Shown piece by piece: positions 3,310 through 56,634 of a stretch of DNA of 64,000 bases (position 1 is the stretch's first letter; each line of letters begins with the position of its first letter). The notes beneath the pieces were generated by a model. It was not told the origin of the DNA, ran no database searches, and worked only from the letters and a program-made list of their open reading frames with translations. A program made the position numbers and the translations under genes. The DNA is from Salinibacterium sp. NG253 (lineage in GTDB: Bacteria > Actinomycetota > Actinomycetes > Actinomycetales > Microbacteriaceae). Location of the stretch: positions 1,798,378-1,862,377 of the forward strand of contig NZ_JADYWF010000001.1 in assembly GCF_015864945.1 (NCBI RefSeq), in the 5' to 3' direction.

Positions 3310-4289
3310 TTCTTCTTTCCCTGCTTCTTCTTTGCGCGGTTCTTACTTACAGGTTGATCCCGCTGCACGTTCTTAGGTTCTTCAATCACAGCAGTTCCGG
3401 AGTCGGATTCGGGAGCTTCTTCGATGATTCCCTTGCGCTGATTACGTTTTGCTAAACGAGCTTCGCGAGCGAGCGCCGCTTCACTGCCAGGAGTAGGCAT
3501 GTTGCGAATCACGAGGAACTGCTGACCCATCGTCCAGAAGTTGGAAACGAGCCAGTAGAACATAACGCCCAGCGGGAAGGTGAACCCAGAGAAGGCAAAA
3601 ACGAGGGGGAGTAGGTACAACATGATCCGCTGCTGGCGGTACATGGGGCTTGCCTTCATTTCAGCCGACTGGTTCTTCGACATGATCTGAAGCTGTGTAA
3701 TGAATTGTGAACCGGTCATGAGGATGACCATGATCACTGCAGTAACGATGACCGCGGTGTTGCCGTCTGCCGTGCTGATTGCTAGGTGCAGGGGAGCGAT
3801 GTTGAAAAGTGACGAAGTTCCGAAGGATTCTGAGAGCTCAGCGTTGAGGAGGCCAACACCAGGAGCGTTTCCCTCGAGCTGTGCATTGCGCAGCACCGAA
3901 AAGAGCCCGAAGAAGATCGGCATCTGCAGAAGAAGAGGGAGGCACGAACTAAACGGGTTGGTTCCCGCGTCCTTGTACATCGCCATCGTTTCGCGAGACA
4001 TCGCCTCACGAGAAAACTGATCCTTCTTGCCTTTGTACTTGTCCTGGATCTTCTTGAGCTGTGGCGCGACTTCCATCATGCGTCGCTGACTCTTGATCTG
4101 GCGAACAAAGACCGGAATCAAAGCTGCGCGCACAACCAAGACGAGACCGACGATCGAAAGAACCCAGGTCAGGCCGGCATCCGCATCCATTCCGAAGAAT
4201 GTAAGGACTTCGTGGAAGGCCACGAGGATTGCCTCGATCACCCACTTGATCGGCCAAAGCAGACTGCCAAAGAAAGCAAAAAGATCCAT
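3306..4289 (-). CDS. yidC: Membrane protein insertase YidC
   Basis: Inserts and folds integral membrane proteins with or without SecYEG. The 327-aa product has an N-terminal membrane segment, then a hydrophobic segment (about 45-65) followed by a basic cytosolic hairpin (QIKSQRRMMEVAPQLKKIQ, about 66-84). Further membrane segments and a lysine-rich C-terminal tail (KNRAKKKQGKKK) follow. The NPFSSCLPLLLQMPIF motif is the family signature for the third membrane region. It lacks the large periplasmic domain of Gram-negative YidC, as expected for a Gram-positive organism. Confidence 0.95.
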   Translation of the reverse strand: MDLFAFFGSLLWPIKWVIEAILVAFHEVLTFFGMDADAGLTWVLSIVGLVLVVRAALIPVFVRQIKSQRRMMEVAPQLKKIQDKYKGKKDQFSREAMSRETMAMYKDAGTNPFSSCLPLLLQMPIFFGLFSVLRNAQLEGNAPGVGLLNAELSESFGTSSLFNIAPLHLAISTADGNTAVIVTAVIMVILMTGSQFITQLQIMSKNQSAEMKASPMYRQQRIMLYLLPLVFAFSGFTFPLGVMFYWLVSNFWTMGQQFLVIRNMPTPGSEAALAREARLAKRNQRKGIIEEAPESDSGTAVIEEPKNVQRDQPVSKNRAKKKQGKKK

Positions 4290-4296
4290 GAAGTAG

Positions 4297-4608
4297 TTAG
4301 CCCCTTTCGTGGCTTGCGGCTACAACAAAGCCGAACCGAGTGATCTGGTAGCGGTCGTGCCGGCGAACCGGGATGTCATCGATTCCGCCTTCGGCCCACG
4401 GGTGGCAACGAAGAAGTCGACGAGAACCAAGCCACACACCACGGACAACACCGTGTTCCTGAATTGCTTGAAGTGTGTAGTGAGAGCACGAAGGGTAATA
4501 CCGGCAGACATCACCGTAGAGAGGTGAAATCACTGCTCGATAAAACCGCAAGACAAGGACACACACGTTGCGCGGAAGGAGCATCGCAAATGTCACGACG
4601 GAACTCAT
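4297..4608 (-). CDS. yidD: Membrane protein insertion efficiency factor YidD
   Basis: Small protein (103 aa) with the YidD hallmark region RFYRAVISPLYGDVCRYYPSCSHYTLQAI, including the CRYYPSCS cysteine motif, and HPWAEGGIDDIP. It is thought to help YidC-dependent insertion. Its start overlaps rnpA by four bases and it is followed by yidC after seven bases. Confidence 0.93.
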   Translation of the reverse strand: MSSVVTFAMLLPRNVCVLVLRFYRAVISPLYGDVCRYYPSCSHYTLQAIQEHGVVRGVWLGSRRLLRCHPWAEGGIDDIPVRRHDRYQITRFGFVVAASHERG

Positions 4609-4946
4609 ACCTTCACCACGATGCGGTCGATCCCTTCTGCAATCTCAGCCTGAAGCGTAGTGCACGCAGCTTGCTCAGAACCTGCCAGCGCACGAACCAC
4701 AATGTCTACGTTCGACTGGACGTGAGGAAGAAGCTGAGCGGCAGCAGCACGAAGCCGACGCCGAACTCGATTGCGTACAACCGCATTGCCTACCGCTTTA
4801 GAAACAATGAAACCAAAGCGAACGCTCTGAGACCGCTCATTGTTCACAATGTGGACAACGCAGTGCGGTGCTGTGAAACGACGACCGCGACGCACAGCCA
4901 AGCGAAAATCGCTAGGAAGCGCCACACGGTTTGCCTTAGACAGCAC
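4605..4946 (-). CDS. rnpA: Ribonuclease P protein component
   Basis: Protein subunit of RNase P, which matures the 5' ends of tRNAs. The 113-aa basic product starts with GTG at 4946 (MLSKANRV) and carries the RNR-like signature NAVVRNRVRRRLR at about residues 51-64, the RNA-contacting helix of the family. It lies nine bases downstream of rpmH, the nearly universal gene pair. Confidence 0.95.
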   Translation of the reverse strand: MLSKANRVALPSDFRLAVRRGRRFTAPHCVVHIVNNERSQSVRFGFIVSKAVGNAVVRNRVRRRLRAAAAQLLPHVQSNVDIVVRALAGSEQAACTTLQAEIAEGIDRIVVKV

Positions 4947-4955
4947 CGGACGAGA

Positions 4956-5093
4956 TTACGCGGAGAGTTCGGTGCGTCCCTTGCGGCGACGAGCACTCAA
5001 GATCGAGCGACCGGCACGGGTACGCATACGCAGACGGAAACCGTGAACCTTCGCGCGGCGACGGTTGTTGGGCTGAAAAGTTCTCTTGCTCAT
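4956..5093 (-). CDS. rpmH: 50S ribosomal protein L34
   Basis: Encodes a 45-aa protein beginning [15 protein letters not shown] and ending in GRTELSA. This is a complete match to the L34 pattern (KRTFQPN, then HGFRLRM, then a second basic half). Divergent from dnaA across 287 bp; it heads the leftward rpmH-rnpA-yidD-yidC-jag unit. Confidence 0.97.
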
Positions 5094-5380
5094 AGCTATA
5101 TCTCCAAGGCCCAGCTCTAGCAGCCGGGAAGAATTGGTAGGCCCAAGGGCCAGAAGTCAACTGATTAAAACTACGGCGTTAAACGGGTGCGGTCAAACCA
5201 CACTTTCTGCAACGGCGCATTATCCACACAGAATACATCCTTATTGGTAACGACATGCTGTGGACAACTACGATGACTATCAGTGCACAACGGCCAAAAG
5301 ACCGCAGTATTTCAGCGAGAATAGCTGTACTCACCAGTGGATAAGCCTGTGAGTAAATACTGCCAAGGGATGGGAAAAGA
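5094..5380. promoter_or_regulatory. rpmH-dnaA intergenic region with DnaA boxes
   Basis: This 287-bp divergent region contains a perfect DnaA box TTATCCACA at 5220-5228. Near matches are TGTGGACAA at 5259-5267 and AGTGGATAA at 5336-5344 (one mismatch each to TGTGGATAA). It must also hold the divergent rpmH and dnaA promoters, so DnaA autoregulation of dnaA is likely. It may form the first half of a bipartite origin. Confidence 0.7.
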
Positions 5381-6796
5381 ATGTCGGAAACACCCGACCC
5401 GACTAAAGGACTGTGGCAAACAGTTCTGACACACCTCAACGGTGATGAGCGAATTACCCCTCAACTGCAGGGATTCGTGAACCTGGTTGAACCAAAAGGC
5501 GTCATGGCCGGCACTCTCTATCTCGAGGTTCCCAACGAGCTGACGCGGGGGATGCTCGAACAACGACTGCGCCAGCCGTTCATCGATGCGATCGCCGCTC
5601 TCGACGACGAACATGGAATTTCGAATTTCGCCACAGTGGTCAATCCTGAAATCCAACAGGATGCCCTTTCTCAAGACATACCGCGTACCGAGCAGCCCTA
5701 CATTGAACCAACTCCACAAAAGCCCGTCGAAACATCAACGCCTCGACGCGGCGATTCACGGCTCAATCCCAAATACAGTTTTGACAACTTCGTTATTGGT
5801 GGATCCAACCGCTTCGCTCACGCAGCAGCAGTGGCTGTCGCCGAAGCACCAGCAAAGGCCTACAACCCGCTCTTCATCTATGGCGAGTCCGGGCTTGGCA
5901 AGACTCACTTGTTGCATGCCATAGGTCACTATGCCGAGAGCCTCTACCCGGGAATCCGGGTGCGTTACGTGAGTTCCGAAGAATTCACCAATGACTTCAT
6001 CAACTCAATCGCTAATAACCGCGCGTCAGTATTTCAGTCTCGCTATCGTGAGATCGACATTTTGCTGATCGATGACATCCAGTTCCTTCAAGGTAAGGAC
6101 TCCACTCAAGAAGCGTTCTTCCACACCTTCAACACCCTTCACGATCACAACAAGCAAGTGGTCATCACCAGCGACCTGCCTCCGAAACACCTCACCGGTT
6201 TTGAAGACCGGATGCGGTCGCGATTCGAATGGGGCCTCATCACCGACGTGCAGGCGCCCGACCTTGAAACGCGAATCGCCATTCTTCGCAAGAAGGCCCA
6301 GAGCGAGAAGATGCAGGTGGGCAACGACATCCTCGAATTCATGGCATCGAAGGTCTCGTCAAACATTCGTGAGCTCGAAGGAACGTTGATTCGAGTTACC
6401 GCGTTCGCGAGCCTCAACCGTACCGAAGTCGACATGGCTCTTGTTCAGACCGTGCTGAAAGATCTCATCACTCTTGATGAAGACAACGTCATCGCGCCGG
6501 TCGACATCATCAATCACACCGCTGACTACTTCAAGCTTTCCGTCGACGACCTTTATGGCTCGTCTCGTTCGCAAGCAATTGCAACCGCGCGTCAGATCGC
6601 TATGTATCTCTGTCGTGAAATGACGAACCTCTCGTTGCCCAAGATTGGACAGCTGTTTGGAAATCGAGACCACACCACAGTGATGTACGCGAATAAGAAG
6701 ATCACTGAGCTCATGAAGGAGCGTCGCTCGATCTATAACCAGGTCACTGAGCTCACAAGTCGCATCAAACAAAACCAGCGTTTCAGCCAGAAATAG
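5381..6796 (+). CDS. dnaA: Chromosomal replication initiator DnaA
   Basis: AAA+ initiator that binds DnaA boxes and opens oriC. The 471-aa product has domain I (about 1-90), a linker, and the AAA+ core starting at NPKYSFDNFV with Walker A GESGLGKTH, Walker B LLIDDIQFL and sensor regions. The C-terminal domain IV carries the box-recognition signature GNRDHTTVMYANKKI. ATG 5381 is preceded by GGGAAAAGA. DnaA boxes flank the gene on both sides. Confidence 0.98.
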   Translation: MSETPDPTKGLWQTVLTHLNGDERITPQLQGFVNLVEPKGVMAGTLYLEVPNELTRGMLEQRLRQPFIDAIAALDDEHGISNFATVVNPEIQQDALSQDIPRTEQPYIEPTPQKPVETSTPRRGDSRLNPKYSFDNFVIGGSNRFAHAAAVAVAEAPAKAYNPLFIYGESGLGKTHLLHAIGHYAESLYPGIRVRYVSSEEFTNDFINSIANNRASVFQSRYREIDILLIDDIQFLQGKDSTQEAFFHTFNTLHDHNKQVVITSDLPPKHLTGFEDRMRSRFEWGLITDVQAPDLETRIAILRKKAQSEKMQVGNDILEFMASKVSSNIRELEGTLIRVTAFASLNRTEVDMALVQTVLKDLITLDEDNVIAPVDIINHTADYFKLSVDDLYGSSRSQAIATARQIAMYLCREMTNLSLPKIGQLFGNRDHTTVMYANKKITELMKERRSIYNQVTELTSRIKQNQRFSQK

Positions 6797-53169: not shown

Positions 53170-53183
53170 GCAGCACTTCGTGG

Positions 53184-54269
53184 CTAGCGACTGAAGCGTG
53201 CTTTAAGCCGGGAGAAGATTCCCTCTTTCGAAGCTTCAGGCTCAGGCATCCGAATCACATCTGCGGTCGTATCGACGGTGTGAGTCAACAAACCCATTAG
53301 TTCAAAGGTGGAGACTAAGCGGCGCGCTTCGTCTTCGGGAACGTGTGCGAGTGACGCGAGCTCGGTGATCGTGAGGTAGGCGGCGCCCAGCATTGCCGTC
53401 ATGCTCATCTGGTCAGTGGTGTGCGTGAGCGTGGTGAGGTTTGGCCAGCGACGCAGTTTGAAGCGAGCGCCTGAAAGGCTCAGGGGGTCGAACGACTCGG
53501 GCTGAGCCTGAGTGCCGATGAGCCAAATCAGAGGCTCCCAGTCGCGGCCAGCTTCATCGTGGTGAATCGCGAGCGGTCGAGCAACGGTCTCGACGTCGCC
53601 GTCGGTGGTCGTTTCAGAGAGTTTCTCAAGAGGTTGAGCCCACCAGTACACGCCCCCGCGGGGATCAATGACGAGAGTGGGAGCATCGGCAAAGCGAAGT
53701 TCCACGAGCGGTTCCGCGGCAGAGTGAACGGCTTCGGTGATGGCGCGGTTGAGCGCATTCCAGGTGGCTGCGGGCAGAACGATATCAACACTGCTAGCGG
53801 GGCCCGTGCGGCGCTTGCCGGCCGCGCGCGCACCGGAGGCGGCATCCGCTGGAGTGTTGTCGTCGTCGATCGGAGTGACGTTGAGGATCTGTGCCGTGGC
53901 GCGCTGGGGTCCCGCAGCATTTGCTTCCGTCGTTGAAGCGGCTGAGAACGGGACAGGAGCGGTGGCTGTAGTGGTGGTGGTGGTGCCGGCCATGGCGGGC
54001 ATCGCCGAGTCCATGGAGGCGCTCGCGTTCGCATGATCGCGGGCGCTCTTGCGTGGGGCCGGGTGAATGATGAGCACGTCGGGGTCCGCGGCAGTGGCGG
54101 GAGCGCTGACGTTGAACTGTTCTTCATCGACCGTGACGTTGAGCGGTGTTGGCTCGCTGTCGAGGGCTGAGACGTGCTCGGTCCAGGCGGTGGCATCCCA
54201 CCAGCGAAGCTGCAGAGCGCCAAGCGGGTCGCGGTACCACCCTGCGGGGATACTGGTGCCGTCGGTCAT
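53184..54269 (-). CDS. DUF2510 protein with a winged-helix-like C-terminus
   Basis: A 361-aa multidomain protein of the GTPase/Roadblock module. The N-terminal DUF2510 tract is PAGWYRDPLGALQLRWWD (about 8-25). A low-complexity Thr/Ala linker (about 60-150) includes a TTTTTT run. The C-terminal part (about 160-345) has VYWWAQPL and ends in a helix-rich segment MLGAAYLTITELASLAHVPE, then RRLVSTFELMGLLTH, which resembles a winged helix. In actinobacterial conservons the DUF742 protein holds a similar helix-turn-helix at this position. Separated from the roadblock gene by a large hairpin. Function unknown. Confidence 0.72.
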   Translation of the reverse strand: MTDGTSIPAGWYRDPLGALQLRWWDATAWTEHVSALDSEPTPLNVTVDEEQFNVSAPATAADPDVLIIHPAPRKSARDHANASASMDSAMPAMAGTTTTTTATAPVPFSAASTTEANAAGPQRATAQILNVTPIDDDNTPADAASGARAAGKRRTGPASSVDIVLPAATWNALNRAITEAVHSAAEPLVELRFADAPTLVIDPRGGVYWWAQPLEKLSETTTDGDVETVARPLAIHHDEAGRDWEPLIWLIGTQAQPESFDPLSLSGARFKLRRWPNLTTLTHTTDQMSMTAMLGAAYLTITELASLAHVPEDEARRLVSTFELMGLLTHTVDTTADVIRMPEPEASKEGIFSRLKARFSR

Positions 54270-54297
54270 GATGTTTCTTTCTGAGCGGTGAAGCCTG

Positions 54298-54326
54298 CTG
54301 TGGCGGTCATCGGATGACCGCCACAG
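54298..54326. repeat. Large perfect hairpin between roadblock and DUF2510 genes
   Basis: Perfect 14-base arms (CTGTGGCGGTCATC and GATGACCGCCACAG) around a single G, so the real loop takes a few stem bases. There is no T-tract on the transcribed (minus) strand. It sits 11 bases past the roadblock stop and 28 bases before the DUF2510 start. Confidence 0.85.
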
Positions 54327-54337
54327 CGAGTGGATTT

Positions 54338-54697
54338 TTAGAGGCCGAGGCTGGAGTCGGCGGTCTTGACGTTGATACGTGCAAGCGCGAGGTTCGACTT
54401 CGCCTTGTCGAGCACGAAGTAGATGAAGACCTCGGGGTTCGATGACAGCGGGCGGATGATGTGGTACTGGCTTGAGAGCGTGATGAGGATGTCATCGATG
54501 GAGTCCTTGAGGCCGAGAGCCTTCATGGTCTTGAGCTTCGCGCGCACTACCTCGGTGTTACCGGCTGCTGCTGCGTCGAGGTCGATGCCGCTTCCAGCGC
54601 TTCCGAGCAGCATGCCCGAGCCGCTGTCGACAACAGCGGCGGCCATGGCGCCATCGGTCTCGAGAAGGGCTGCGAGGGTTTCAGTGATGTTTGACAT
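54338..54697 (-). CDS. Roadblock/LC7 domain protein 2
   Basis: A 119-aa single-domain protein. The Roadblock fold is suggested by MSNITETLAALLETDGAMAAAVVDSGSGMLLG at the start and ALGLKDSIDDILITLSSQYHIIRPL in the middle, ending in NLALARINVK. Such proteins act as GTPase-activating or scaffolding partners (MglB or CvnB-like). Located between the first roadblock gene and the DUF2510 gene. Confidence 0.78.
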   Translation of the reverse strand: MSNITETLAALLETDGAMAAAVVDSGSGMLLGSAGSGIDLDAAAAGNTEVVRAKLKTMKALGLKDSIDDILITLSSQYHIIRPLSSNPEVFIYFVLDKAKSNLALARINVKTADSSLGL

Positions 54698-54748
54698 TAT
54701 GTTCTCCGTTTGAGGTGTCGGGTTGGTGATACGTCGATGTGATGCTGG

Positions 54749-55168
54749 TTAAGCAATGAGCTCGGCCATGCGTCGCGCGGCAATGCGTGCGATCGAGAGG
54801 CCTTTGCCCAAAGTTTCATGAGTGTCGAACAGTGCGGCGAGCACGATGGGGTGCCCTTGCACGCGCAGCTGGATGACATGGCCGAGTTCGGATGCGATGA
54901 TCACGTACTCGTTGGTGCCGATTTTCAGTTCGTGGGCGACAGCATCGCTGAGTGCTTGCACTGAGCTGGACATGCTGGCGAAGCGTCCGCCATCCGCGTG
55001 GGTTCCATTGAGGTGAACGATCTCGAAGCCATCATCGGTGAGCAGCGAGGCAAAGGTGAGTGAGCTCGCGAGATCTTGCATTTCGGCAAGGGTGCGGTTG
55101 CCGGCTTCGATGTGGACGGGGTTCAGGTGCGATGCAATAGCGGCGACGGGCGCAGGGGTGAGGTTCAT
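54749..55168 (-). CDS. Roadblock/LC7 domain protein 1
   Basis: A 139-aa protein with a Roadblock-like fold: FASLLTDDGFEIVHL, an Ala-rich helix (SSVQALSDAVAHELKIG) and a beta-alpha end (VIQLRVQGHPIVLAALF). Its ATG overlaps the GTPase stop (TAATG), a strong sign of translational coupling and direct partnership with the GTPase. Resembles CvnB/MglB partners. Confidence 0.8.
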   Translation of the reverse strand: MNLTPAPVAAIASHLNPVHIEAGNRTLAEMQDLASSLTFASLLTDDGFEIVHLNGTHADGGRFASMSSSVQALSDAVAHELKIGTNEYVIIASELGHVIQLRVQGHPIVLAALFDTHETLGKGLSIARIAARRMAELIA

Positions 55169-55743
55169 TAGATGTTCTCGGAGATCGGTGTCGGGGCAGG
55201 TGCAAGGAGTTCACGCATTTCGACGCTGGCGACGAGGGTGAGCAGCAGGGTGCGCATCTCTTCGGCATTGCGAGGGTCGACGGTGAATACGGGAATCAAT
55301 TGGTCGGGAGACGCAGCGGTGAGCGCGGCCGAGTAGTCGGCAACGCTGGGTGTTTCGGAAACATCAGACTTGGTGACACCGATGACAACCGCGCCGCGGG
55401 CGTGAAGTTCACGGAAGTCGTTGAGGTATTCCAGAAGCAGCGCGACAGAGTCTGGCGCATCGTTATTGATGAGAAGAAGTAGACCACGTGCGCGGCCGGC
55501 CAAAATTGACCACATGAAATCGAAGCGCTTTTGCCCCGGAACTCCGTAGAGGCGAACCTTCGTGACATCGTCGATGGTGATCTCGCCGTAGTCAAGAGCC
55601 ACCGTAGTGGTCTCTTTATCCGCTGTCTCGCGATCGGTGTTGGTAGCCTCGGTCGACACCACAGCGATTTCGCTCAGACTGCGAATAGCGGTCGTCTTGC
55701 CGGAGCCCATGGGGCCAGCAAACAAAACGACGTGCTCAGACAT
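55168..55743 (-). CDS. MglA/CvnD-like small GTPase
   Basis: A 191-aa Ras-like GTPase of the MglA/CvnD (conservon) type. G1/Walker A is GPMGSGKTT at residues 10-18. A switch I-like ETTTVALDYGEI is at 44-55. G3 GVPGQKRFDFMW (67-78) has the Gly-x-Pro-Gly-Gln form of CvnD in place of DxxGQ. G4 is TKSD at 124-127. The first gene of a leftward set of four. It likely cycles between GTP and GDP with the two Roadblock proteins as GAP or scaffold. No sensor kinase (CvnA-like) is next to it. Confidence 0.85.
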   Translation of the reverse strand: MSEHVVLFAGPMGSGKTTAIRSLSEIAVVSTEATNTDRETADKETTTVALDYGEITIDDVTKVRLYGVPGQKRFDFMWSILAGRARGLLLLINNDAPDSVALLLEYLNDFRELHARGAVVIGVTKSDVSETPSVADYSAALTAASPDQLIPVFTVDPRNAEEMRTLLLTLVASVEMRELLAPAPTPISENI

Positions 55744-56001
55744 AGATCTCTTTCGGTTGGTTAGTACTTCGGAGCGAACGCCTCATTCGATGGGCGTGCG
55801 AATACCGCTAAACGATCAGGCGTCGTGTGCGGCGTTAATAGAATCGGTGCTGCCCAAAATCTTCACGAGTCCCCACTCGGGGGTCGCGAGAACGGAACCC
55901 GCAGAAAACTGCACCAGAACGTTCTGTCTGTCCCCATCACTGGGTGTAAGTTTTACCCGAAAAACGGGGTACCCAGCGGGCGGCAGGGTGGTGCGAGGTC
56001 T

Positions 56002-56634
56002 CTACTTGTGCGGGTGGACTGCCCATTCGCGGTCGAGAATCGCGTAAATACCGGTGTCTGCCCACGCGCCCTTGAACCACATATCTTCCACGTGATGTGC
56101 TTCATGCCGCATGCCAAGCGCGAGACACAAGCGAACGGAATCGTCGTTTCGGGGATCCAAATTGGCGAAAACCCGGTGCAGCTTCAGGGCGTCGAAAGCG
56201 AGATCGAGCAGAGCGGATGCTGCCTCCCGGGCATAGCCCTTGCCCTGGAAGTCGGGATGCAGAGCCCACCCGATCTCGGCATTCGAATCCTCAGCACTCT
56301 CGATCTTGAAATACAGGGTTCCGATCATCACGGAGCGGCGCTCGCGGTGGTGAGCTGTGGGCTCAGCGCCCGCCGCAACGGGAGGAACAGCATCCGGTAG
56401 TTCAATGGCCAGCTGCACGTAATCGTCAGTCTCCGCGAGCACTTCGTTCGCTGTCCACTCGGTGATCTTCTCGATTATCGTGGCGCGGTCGCGGGGCTCG
56501 TAAAGCATGTAGGTAGTGAGCTCGGGGTCTGACTGCTGCGCGTGCAGGTCGTCGATATCGTGCTCGCTGGGCGTGAGGCGGCGCAACACGAGGCGCTCGG
56601 TGTGCAGGGGAGCTGTTGACTCATACGGTTTCAT
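56002..56634 (-). CDS. GNAT-family N-acetyltransferase (RimJ/RimL-like)
   Basis: A 210-aa protein with the GNAT_3/RimJ-like start HTERLVLRRLTPSEHD. The acetyl-CoA-binding motif A is HPDFQGKGYAREAASALLDLAF, followed by HRVFANLDPRNDDSVRLCLALGM. Substrate unknown. The 258-bp gap upstream of the GTPase gene (55744-56001) shows nothing convincing beyond the GTPase promoter region. Confidence 0.88.
   Translation of the reverse strand: MKPYESTAPLHTERLVLRRLTPSEHDIDDLHAQQSDPELTTYMLYEPRDRATIIEKITEWTANEVLAETDDYVQLAIELPDAVPPVAAGAEPTAHHRERRSVMIGTLYFKIESAEDSNAEIGWALHPDFQGKGYAREAASALLDLAFDALKLHRVFANLDPRNDDSVRLCLALGMRHEAHHVEDMWFKGAWADTGIYAILDREWAVHPHK

Follow-up and report, generated by a model that had tools for sequence, protein, structure and literature searches.

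In a 64,000-nucleotide stretch of the Salinibacterium sp. NG253 genome (Microbacteriaceae; contig NZ_JADYWF010000001.1, positions 1,798,378 to 1,862,377), hereafter the window, four minus-strand genes at 53184-55743 encode an MglA-family small GTPase, two small Roadblock/MglB-like proteins and a protein joining DUF2510 to a winged helix. We conclude that these genes very probably constitute an actinobacterial variant of the Group 3-type MglA G-protein systems. The module would probably act as an MglA/MglB-like switch on type IV pili in Gram-positive bacteria, an output suggested by co-occurrence and gene linkage. What is new is the occurrence of Group 3-type MglA modules in Microbacteriaceae, with no receiver-like domain, one defining feature of Group 3, found in the window protein, together with their association with pilus genes. 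All four open reading frames (ORFs) are intact, with the coordinates given by an earlier, sequence-only reading of the window; its description of four leftward genes, a TAATG overlap and a GVPGQKRF motif held in every detail.

Probable kinship with Group 3 systems

Group 3 systems have been described, almost exclusively from beta/gamma-Proteobacteria, as combining an MglA and one or two MglB proteins with a further protein that is receiver-like at its N-terminus and a winged helix at its C-terminus (Wuichet and Sogaard-Andersen 2014, PMC4316618). To place the window GTPase, we kept 80 GTPase loci from 437 relatives: 12 from Microbacteriaceae or alike (two carrying wider names), 44 proteobacterial and 24 from Chloroflexota. 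Seven near-duplicate or partial loci were excluded ahead of the tree, which held 106 GTPase rows, was midpoint-rooted for drawing only, and had several long branches and a bootstrap that had not settled. One branch of length 1.42, with support of 100/100, separated 16 Micrococcales CvnD-type and 24 Chloroflexota GTPases from all others: 19 rows from Microbacteriaceae, 45 from Proteobacteria and 2 odd ones from Actinomycetota. Rows were labelled CvnD-type on the strength of a DUF742-like gene between the Roadblock gene and the GTPase, present in 14/14 loci examined of the 16; proteobacterial rows were counted as Group 3 by taxon and neighbourhood, not by published Group 3 labels. One feature of the tree speaks against the Group 3 assignment: the Microbacteriaceae GTPases form a clade of their own and are not nested among the proteobacterial rows.

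The winged-helix protein also links the two groups. Aligned with 12 relatives, the winged-helix half of the window protein matched the winged-helix proteins of 20 proteobacterial loci in hhalign at 98.2% (E value 3e-14). A profile started from the window protein located a winged-helix gene upstream of the GTPase, at a distance of less than 250 bp, in 43/44 proteobacterial loci and in 0/24 Chloroflexota loci, the sole proteobacterial exception starting near a contig end; near the GTPase, such a gene was also present in all 12 Microbacteriaceae-type loci. Because these very loci served to build the profile iteratively, and the 20 proteobacterial proteins were selected with it, the hhalign comparison checks the homology of two separately aligned sets, not their selection. 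A tblastn search with the window DUF2510 protein gave only one weak proteobacterial match (locus L081, E value 5e-4).

The alignment of the window protein to its proteobacterial counterparts begins at residue 238, and DUF2510 occupies the place of the receiver-like part of the Group 3 protein. Pfam, profile alignment and the structural model revealed no receiver-like domain in the window protein, and Pfam returned nothing consistent for the receiver-like N-termini of 20 proteobacterial relatives. Among the 12 Microbacteriaceae-type loci, gene order goes with the type of N-terminus: in the seven with a DUF2510-type N-terminus, as read from the alignment, the winged-helix gene follows the GTPase, and in the other five, which have no such N-terminus, it precedes the GTPase, as in Proteobacteria. 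Separately, four proteobacterial loci (L049, L053, L054, L055) have one GTPase flanked by two winged-helix genes, an arrangement that suggests duplicated partner proteins.

The GTPase itself (191 residues, 55168..55743, minus strand, first gene of the module) matched ATP_bind_1 in Pfam (47.2 bits, E value 3.1e-12), and its weak sequence matches in the PDB included MglA (3t12, E value 0.019). It carries all five G motifs (G1 to G5: GPMGSGKT, TTTVALDYG, GVPGQKRF, TKSD and DPR), and it is 100% identical to its counterpart in Salinibacterium sp. SWN167. Its G2 reads TTT, with no arginine next to the threonine such as Group 1 MglA has. The MglA proteins of Groups 2-5 are reported to have threonine for this arginine and GTPGQ in G3, with DAR as G5 in Groups 2 and 3 (PMC4316618). 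The window GTPase has GVPGQ and DPR at the latter two motifs, where the Microbacteriaceae rows are variable.

Taken feature by feature, the module shares with Group 3 an MglA-type GTPase without the G2 arginine, the one or two Roadblock genes (two here), an adjacent winged-helix protein homologous across its C-terminal part, and the lack of a kinase as a defining component. It differs in its actinobacterial host, in DUF2510 standing for the receiver-like N-terminus, in a winged-helix gene that comes last rather than first in the Salinibacterium modules, in GVPGQ instead of GTPGQ, and in the lysine of the window copy's TKSD. The Group 1 systems of Myxococcus and Thermus resemble it in that the second Roadblock protein fits MglB best, as described below, and in the pilus output proposed here. 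Unlike Group 1, the window operon has TTT in G2 and includes two additional genes, for another Roadblock protein and for the winged-helix protein, and no RomR-type response regulator was detected among the flanking genes tested at this locus or at a second copy of the module.

The sequence-only reading had rightly recognised a GTPase switch, its two Roadblock partners and the DUF2510/winged-helix protein, as well as the lack of an adjacent kinase: Pfam detected no protein kinase domain (E value 1e-5) in ten flanking genes, six in the window and four around the second copy. Its interpretation of this set as a conservon that had lost its sensor kinase and CvnC is, in our view, very improbable. 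Conservons (CvnA-D) do come from the same phylum, have a similar number of genes and share the GTPase and Roadblock core together with a third protein bearing a winged-helix-like stretch; in addition, a faint similarity to DUF742-like proteins extends over 43 winged-helix columns (E value 0.004). Yet the window GTPase lies across the 100/100 branch from the CvnD-type proteins, the winged helix finds its kin in Proteobacteria, the gene order differs, and a CvnA kinase is missing from the flanking genes tested. DUF742, absent from the module, was not found anywhere in the organism's own genome and scored above cut-off in 0/27 genus genomes (one weak match in another genome). Nor could the DUF2510 protein, which had been assigned to the CvnC place, be detectably related to CvnC-type proteins: hhalign gave a probability of 8.5% (1.1% for the proteobacterial relatives), and what is shared is only the general winged-helix pattern. 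We therefore rejected both the sensor-less conservon and the CvnC homologue. Group 3 systems are described without an adjacent kinase (PMC4316618), and since the kinship lies with Group 3 and not with conservons, the missing kinase is better read as normal for such systems than as a loss. For comparison, the CvnC homologue MfpC is considered a likely guanine-nucleotide exchange factor in one paper (PMC13343842), and another describes this as still awaiting exploration (PMC9769811).

The Roadblock and winged-helix partners

Both small proteins have the Roadblock/LC7 fold, the second by its model and PDB match, the first through the Pfam match of a paralogue, so that the fold check proposed in the sequence-only reading for the 54338 and 54749 products was passed. 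Roadblock 1 (139 residues, 54749..55168, minus strand), whose start codon shares one base with the GTPase stop codon (TAATG), stayed below the Robl_LC7 threshold in Pfam (16.9 bits versus a cut-off of 23, E value 0.005), while a 53%-identical paralogue elsewhere in the genome exceeded it with 27.1 bits. Roadblock 2 (119 residues, 54338..54697, minus strand) had no match in Pfam or NCBIfam up to an E value of 1. Its AlphaFold2 model, built from 19 sequences, reached a predicted local distance difference test score (pLDDT) of 90.5 and a predicted template modelling score of 0.85, and Myxococcus MglB (6hjm) was its top Foldseek match (E value 2.7e-8); comparison of the two by VIA gave Z 17.3 and a root-mean-square deviation of 1.7 over 114 residues.

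The two proteins differ at an Asp-Gly pair noted for the MglB partners of Groups 2-5 (PMC4316618). Roadblock 1 retains this pair of the MglB homologues. The Roadblock 2 sequences form a separate subfamily, in which the aspartate is invariant and the following residue is Ser, Leu or Val but never Gly (19/19 sequences). Relatives of Roadblock 2 with about 60% identity occur in 5/44 proteobacterial loci, or 6/44 when a profile is applied at an E value below 1e-20.

The last gene (53184..54269, minus strand) encodes a 361-residue protein composed of DUF2510 (residues 9-40, 37.8 bits in Pfam), a low-confidence linker, an alpha/beta region, a winged helix and a basic C-terminal tail. Residues 44-163 have a model pLDDT below 50, which we read as disorder. 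The C-terminal half, including the winged helix, is better ordered (whole-model mean pLDDT 64.3), and residues 164-258 were modelled without a clear structural match. For the winged-helix part (residues 259-333), the best structural matches were chains of the SEA/GATOR1 complexes (Z 8.4-9.1 over 72-74 residues), with DNA-binding regulators of the MarR and Lrp types ranking lower (Z 5-6.5); Foldseek alone gave no match at an E value of 0.001. A likeness at this level is too weak to indicate homology. These chains are Npr2/Npr3-type regulators, which control Rag GTPases together with Roadblock proteins. Because they outrank the DNA-binding regulators, the winged-helix protein leans, if weakly, to a protein-binding role.

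The tails of this family are basic, with a median net charge of +4. An amphipathic C-terminal helix was rejected as a candidate feature, the hydrophobic moment being no higher than in composition-preserving shuffles (median p 0.25; 5/60 below 0.05). The first tail pattern tried matched 1/60 family tails; a basic motif written after viewing the tails was present in 46/60 family members versus 3/1862 other ORFs. At the level of sequence, this motif shows conservation, not membrane binding. A literature search on DUF2510 returned no paper.

Linkage to type IV pili

In some relatives, the module adjoins type IV pilus genes and therefore probably controls pili. Three GTPase-bearing genomes of genus g65 carry the genes in the order Roadblock 2, Roadblock 1, GTPase and winged helix, divergent from a pilB-pilT-pilC-pilA-minor pilin operon; in another genome of this genus (G439) the pil operon is present, but the 19-kb stretch taken contains no module. 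In two g32 genomes, module and pilB are approximately 20 kb and 17 kb apart. In Microbacterium oleivorans, about 400 bases separate the start of the GTPase gene from a pilin gene, and the GTPase gene diverges from a run of pilin, minor pilin, putative peptidase and PilM-type genes (PilM below cut-off; the peptidase named by similarity to the gene in the Salinibacterium genome, with no NCBIfam match). The M. oleivorans proteins are 61-64% (GTPase) and 47-49% (PilC) identical to those of g65, no higher than to other genera, so this locus probably lies outside g65. Adjacency to pil genes thus occurs in two arrangements and in diverged lineages. Two Burkholderiales loci carry a TfpB-type pilus ATPase gene (above cut-off) 1.5-1.6 kb past the GTPase. 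A single cluster of the Salinibacterium genome itself (C1:1270000-1289000) contains genes of the pilB, pilT, pilC, pilin and pilM types; in it PilT, PilM and the prepilin domain pass the NCBI cut-offs and PilB and PilC are best matches but below theirs.

Co-occurrence points in the same direction. Among 398 Microbacteriaceae genomes, 36 had the GTPase (E value 1e-25 or better) and 189 had pilB (E value 1e-80 or better). pilB was present in 35/36 GTPase-bearing genomes versus 154/362 others (Fisher p 1.6e-11, genomes treated as independent despite their kinship), the lone GTPase-bearing genome without it being 66% complete; counted by genus, the figures were 11/12 versus 40/73 (p 0.0135, genera likewise treated as independent). 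There is precedent for such an output. In Myxococcus, MglA acts on PilB placement through SgmX (PMC7519303), and MglA control of pili has also been reported in Bdellovibrio. In Snodgrassella, whose mglA is assigned to Group 3 (PMC11112851), motile flares appeared on soft agar when an orphan mglB was mutated, an effect ascribed by the authors to type IV pili (PMC11112851). Among the matches listed by an open-access literature search, we recognised no paper linking actinobacterial MglA to type IV pili, and a term search of the main text of a Gram-positive pilus survey (PMC3244431) found no mention of GTPase or GTP-binding.

Several observations weigh against a pilus output. An unrelated control gene (FGGY carbohydrate kinase) was likewise enriched in GTPase-bearing genomes (33/36 versus 246/362, p 0.0013), so genome size or lifestyle accounts for part of the pilB association. 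Type IV pilus-type genes flank only 4 of the 80 fetched loci, as judged with actinobacterial queries and with several flanks short, and of 33 GTPase-bearing genomes that have both positions listed, 28 carry module and pilB far from each other or on different contigs, with about 570 kb between them in the Salinibacterium genome. The enrichment of the control gene, the rarity of flanking pilus genes and the distances also favour the alternative that this is a G-protein module unrelated to pili and that the overlap with pilB reflects larger, free-living genomes. We nevertheless regard this alternative as rather improbable, since the pilB association persists within control-positive genomes (33/33 versus 127/246, p 2e-9) and pil adjacency recurs in g65 and M. 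oleivorans. Pili do not need the module, as pilB is common without the GTPase, both in the 154 family genomes counted above and in the genus, where 26/27 genomes have pilB and 10/27 the GTPase. We found no biochemical or genetic experiment on this module.

The sequence-only reading had left the output undecided between localisation and transcription; the linkage points to type IV pili. Transcription deserves weighing nonetheless, in the form of a winged-helix protein that is a GTPase-gated, DNA-binding regulator, the module then controlling transcription, possibly of pilus genes or of its own operon. Such a role was proposed for Group 3 on the basis of its receiver-like and winged-helix architecture (Wuichet and Sogaard-Andersen, PMC4316618), and it would suit the MarR- and Lrp-type structural matches, the divergent position beside pil operons, which fits a local regulator, and a conserved palindrome within the module. 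We consider it unlikely, given that the SEA/GATOR1 chains outrank those regulators (though Z near 8 is weak), that the conserved basic tail may indicate membrane or protein contact, and that the window protein has no detectable receiver-like domain.

For the preferred pilus switch, a mechanism can be sketched from these features and by analogy with Myxococcus. The GTPase would cycle between GDP and GTP. Roadblock 1, with the MglB Asp-Gly pair, may act as, or as part of, a GTPase-activating protein (GAP), and Roadblock 2, lacking the pair, may be a non-GAP partner resembling MglC in its role, possibly as one half of a heterodimer. The DUF2510/winged-helix protein would bind the GTPase as a regulator or effector, with DUF2510 and the basic tail bringing the GTPase to the membrane or envelope. 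Finally, in its GTP-bound state the switch would determine the place or timing of PilB/PilT/PilC action, much as MglA does in Myxococcus. As a tentative whole, Microbacteriaceae might place or activate type IV pili by a Group 3-type switch shared with Proteobacteria. Its winged-helix protein, having no receiver, would use DUF2510 and the basic tail in place of a two-component input, and Roadblock 2 would tune the cycle as a non-GAP partner.

The locus, its copies and its significance

The module is a 2.84-kb presence/absence segment (53170..56012, comprising the four genes and the upstream gap) that is absent en bloc from two congeneric genomes. In these (G005 and G017), 5 and 31 bases separate the match to the beta-lactamase-family gene from that to the GNAT gene, versus 2838 in the Salinibacterium sp. 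NG253 genome; in blastn against the corresponding loci (L146 and L147), the window flanks align up to 53169/53170 and resume at 56013/56021. The flanks align through and the module is absent, and the four genes were therefore gained or lost as a single segment. Composition gives no sign of recent transfer: a foreign origin was rejected because GC content and GC content at third codon positions (GC3) are close to those of five neighbours, with GC3 of the GTPase (0.67) and Roadblock 2 (0.80) genes just outside the neighbours' 0.69-0.77. As the gene set is conserved in other genomes, it is not a chance arrangement. Its neighbours in the window encode an MFS transporter, an M13 peptidase, the beta-lactamase-family protein, the GNAT acetyltransferase, glutamyl-tRNA reductase and uroporphyrinogen decarboxylase. 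A promoter scan gave a single promoter-like site, on the opposite strand.

Between the Roadblock 2 and DUF2510 genes lies an inverted repeat (54296..54328) of 14 Watson-Crick pairs and one G-T pair around a 3-base loop. In the window and in seven related sequences, a strong hairpin is predicted here, and the exact palindrome motif occurs at this place only in 6/27 genus genomes and nowhere in the other 21. Rfam gave no match to the region above the gathering score. The palindrome may separate expression of the last gene from that of the others, or it may serve as a binding site.

The main GTPase copy (88% identity or more) is present in 8/27 genus genomes, that of strain NG253 included. A copy with approximately 60% identity occurs in 10/27, split in one of them (G015:C1:478693-479243) across two open frames by a frameshift or assembly error. 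Both copies are present in S. amurskyense DSM 16400, a culturable Salinibacterium strain. In strain NG253, this second copy is a three-gene set of GTPase, Roadblock 1 and DUF2510/winged-helix genes on another contig (locus L118, G000:C2:616500-627500, positions 3738-5968). Its GTPase is 59-60% identical to the first, its neighbours encode an EamA transporter, a MarR-type regulator and an FGGY carbohydrate kinase, and no Roadblock 2 gene was found in the 11-kb stretch around it. Two further loci of the same order (L119 in G092 and L120 in G069) contain a divergent GTPase-Roadblock pair, accompanied in one case by a relative of Roadblock 2, and no winged-helix gene was found in the stretches taken; these pairs are perhaps another G-protein system.

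MglA control of pili has been worked out in Myxococcus (PMC7519303), and the only experimental link between Group 3 and pili that we found is indirect, coming from the orphan mglB mutation in Snodgrassella (PMC11112851). In the literature we found, the actinobacterial G-protein systems studied so far are conservons (PMC13343842, PMC9769811). If true, the pilus link would provide a setting for an otherwise unexplained DUF2510 fusion and for a Roadblock subfamily that escapes Pfam and NCBIfam. A compact module next to pilus operons, in Gram-positive bacteria that can be grown in culture, would open the output of Group 3 systems to direct testing.

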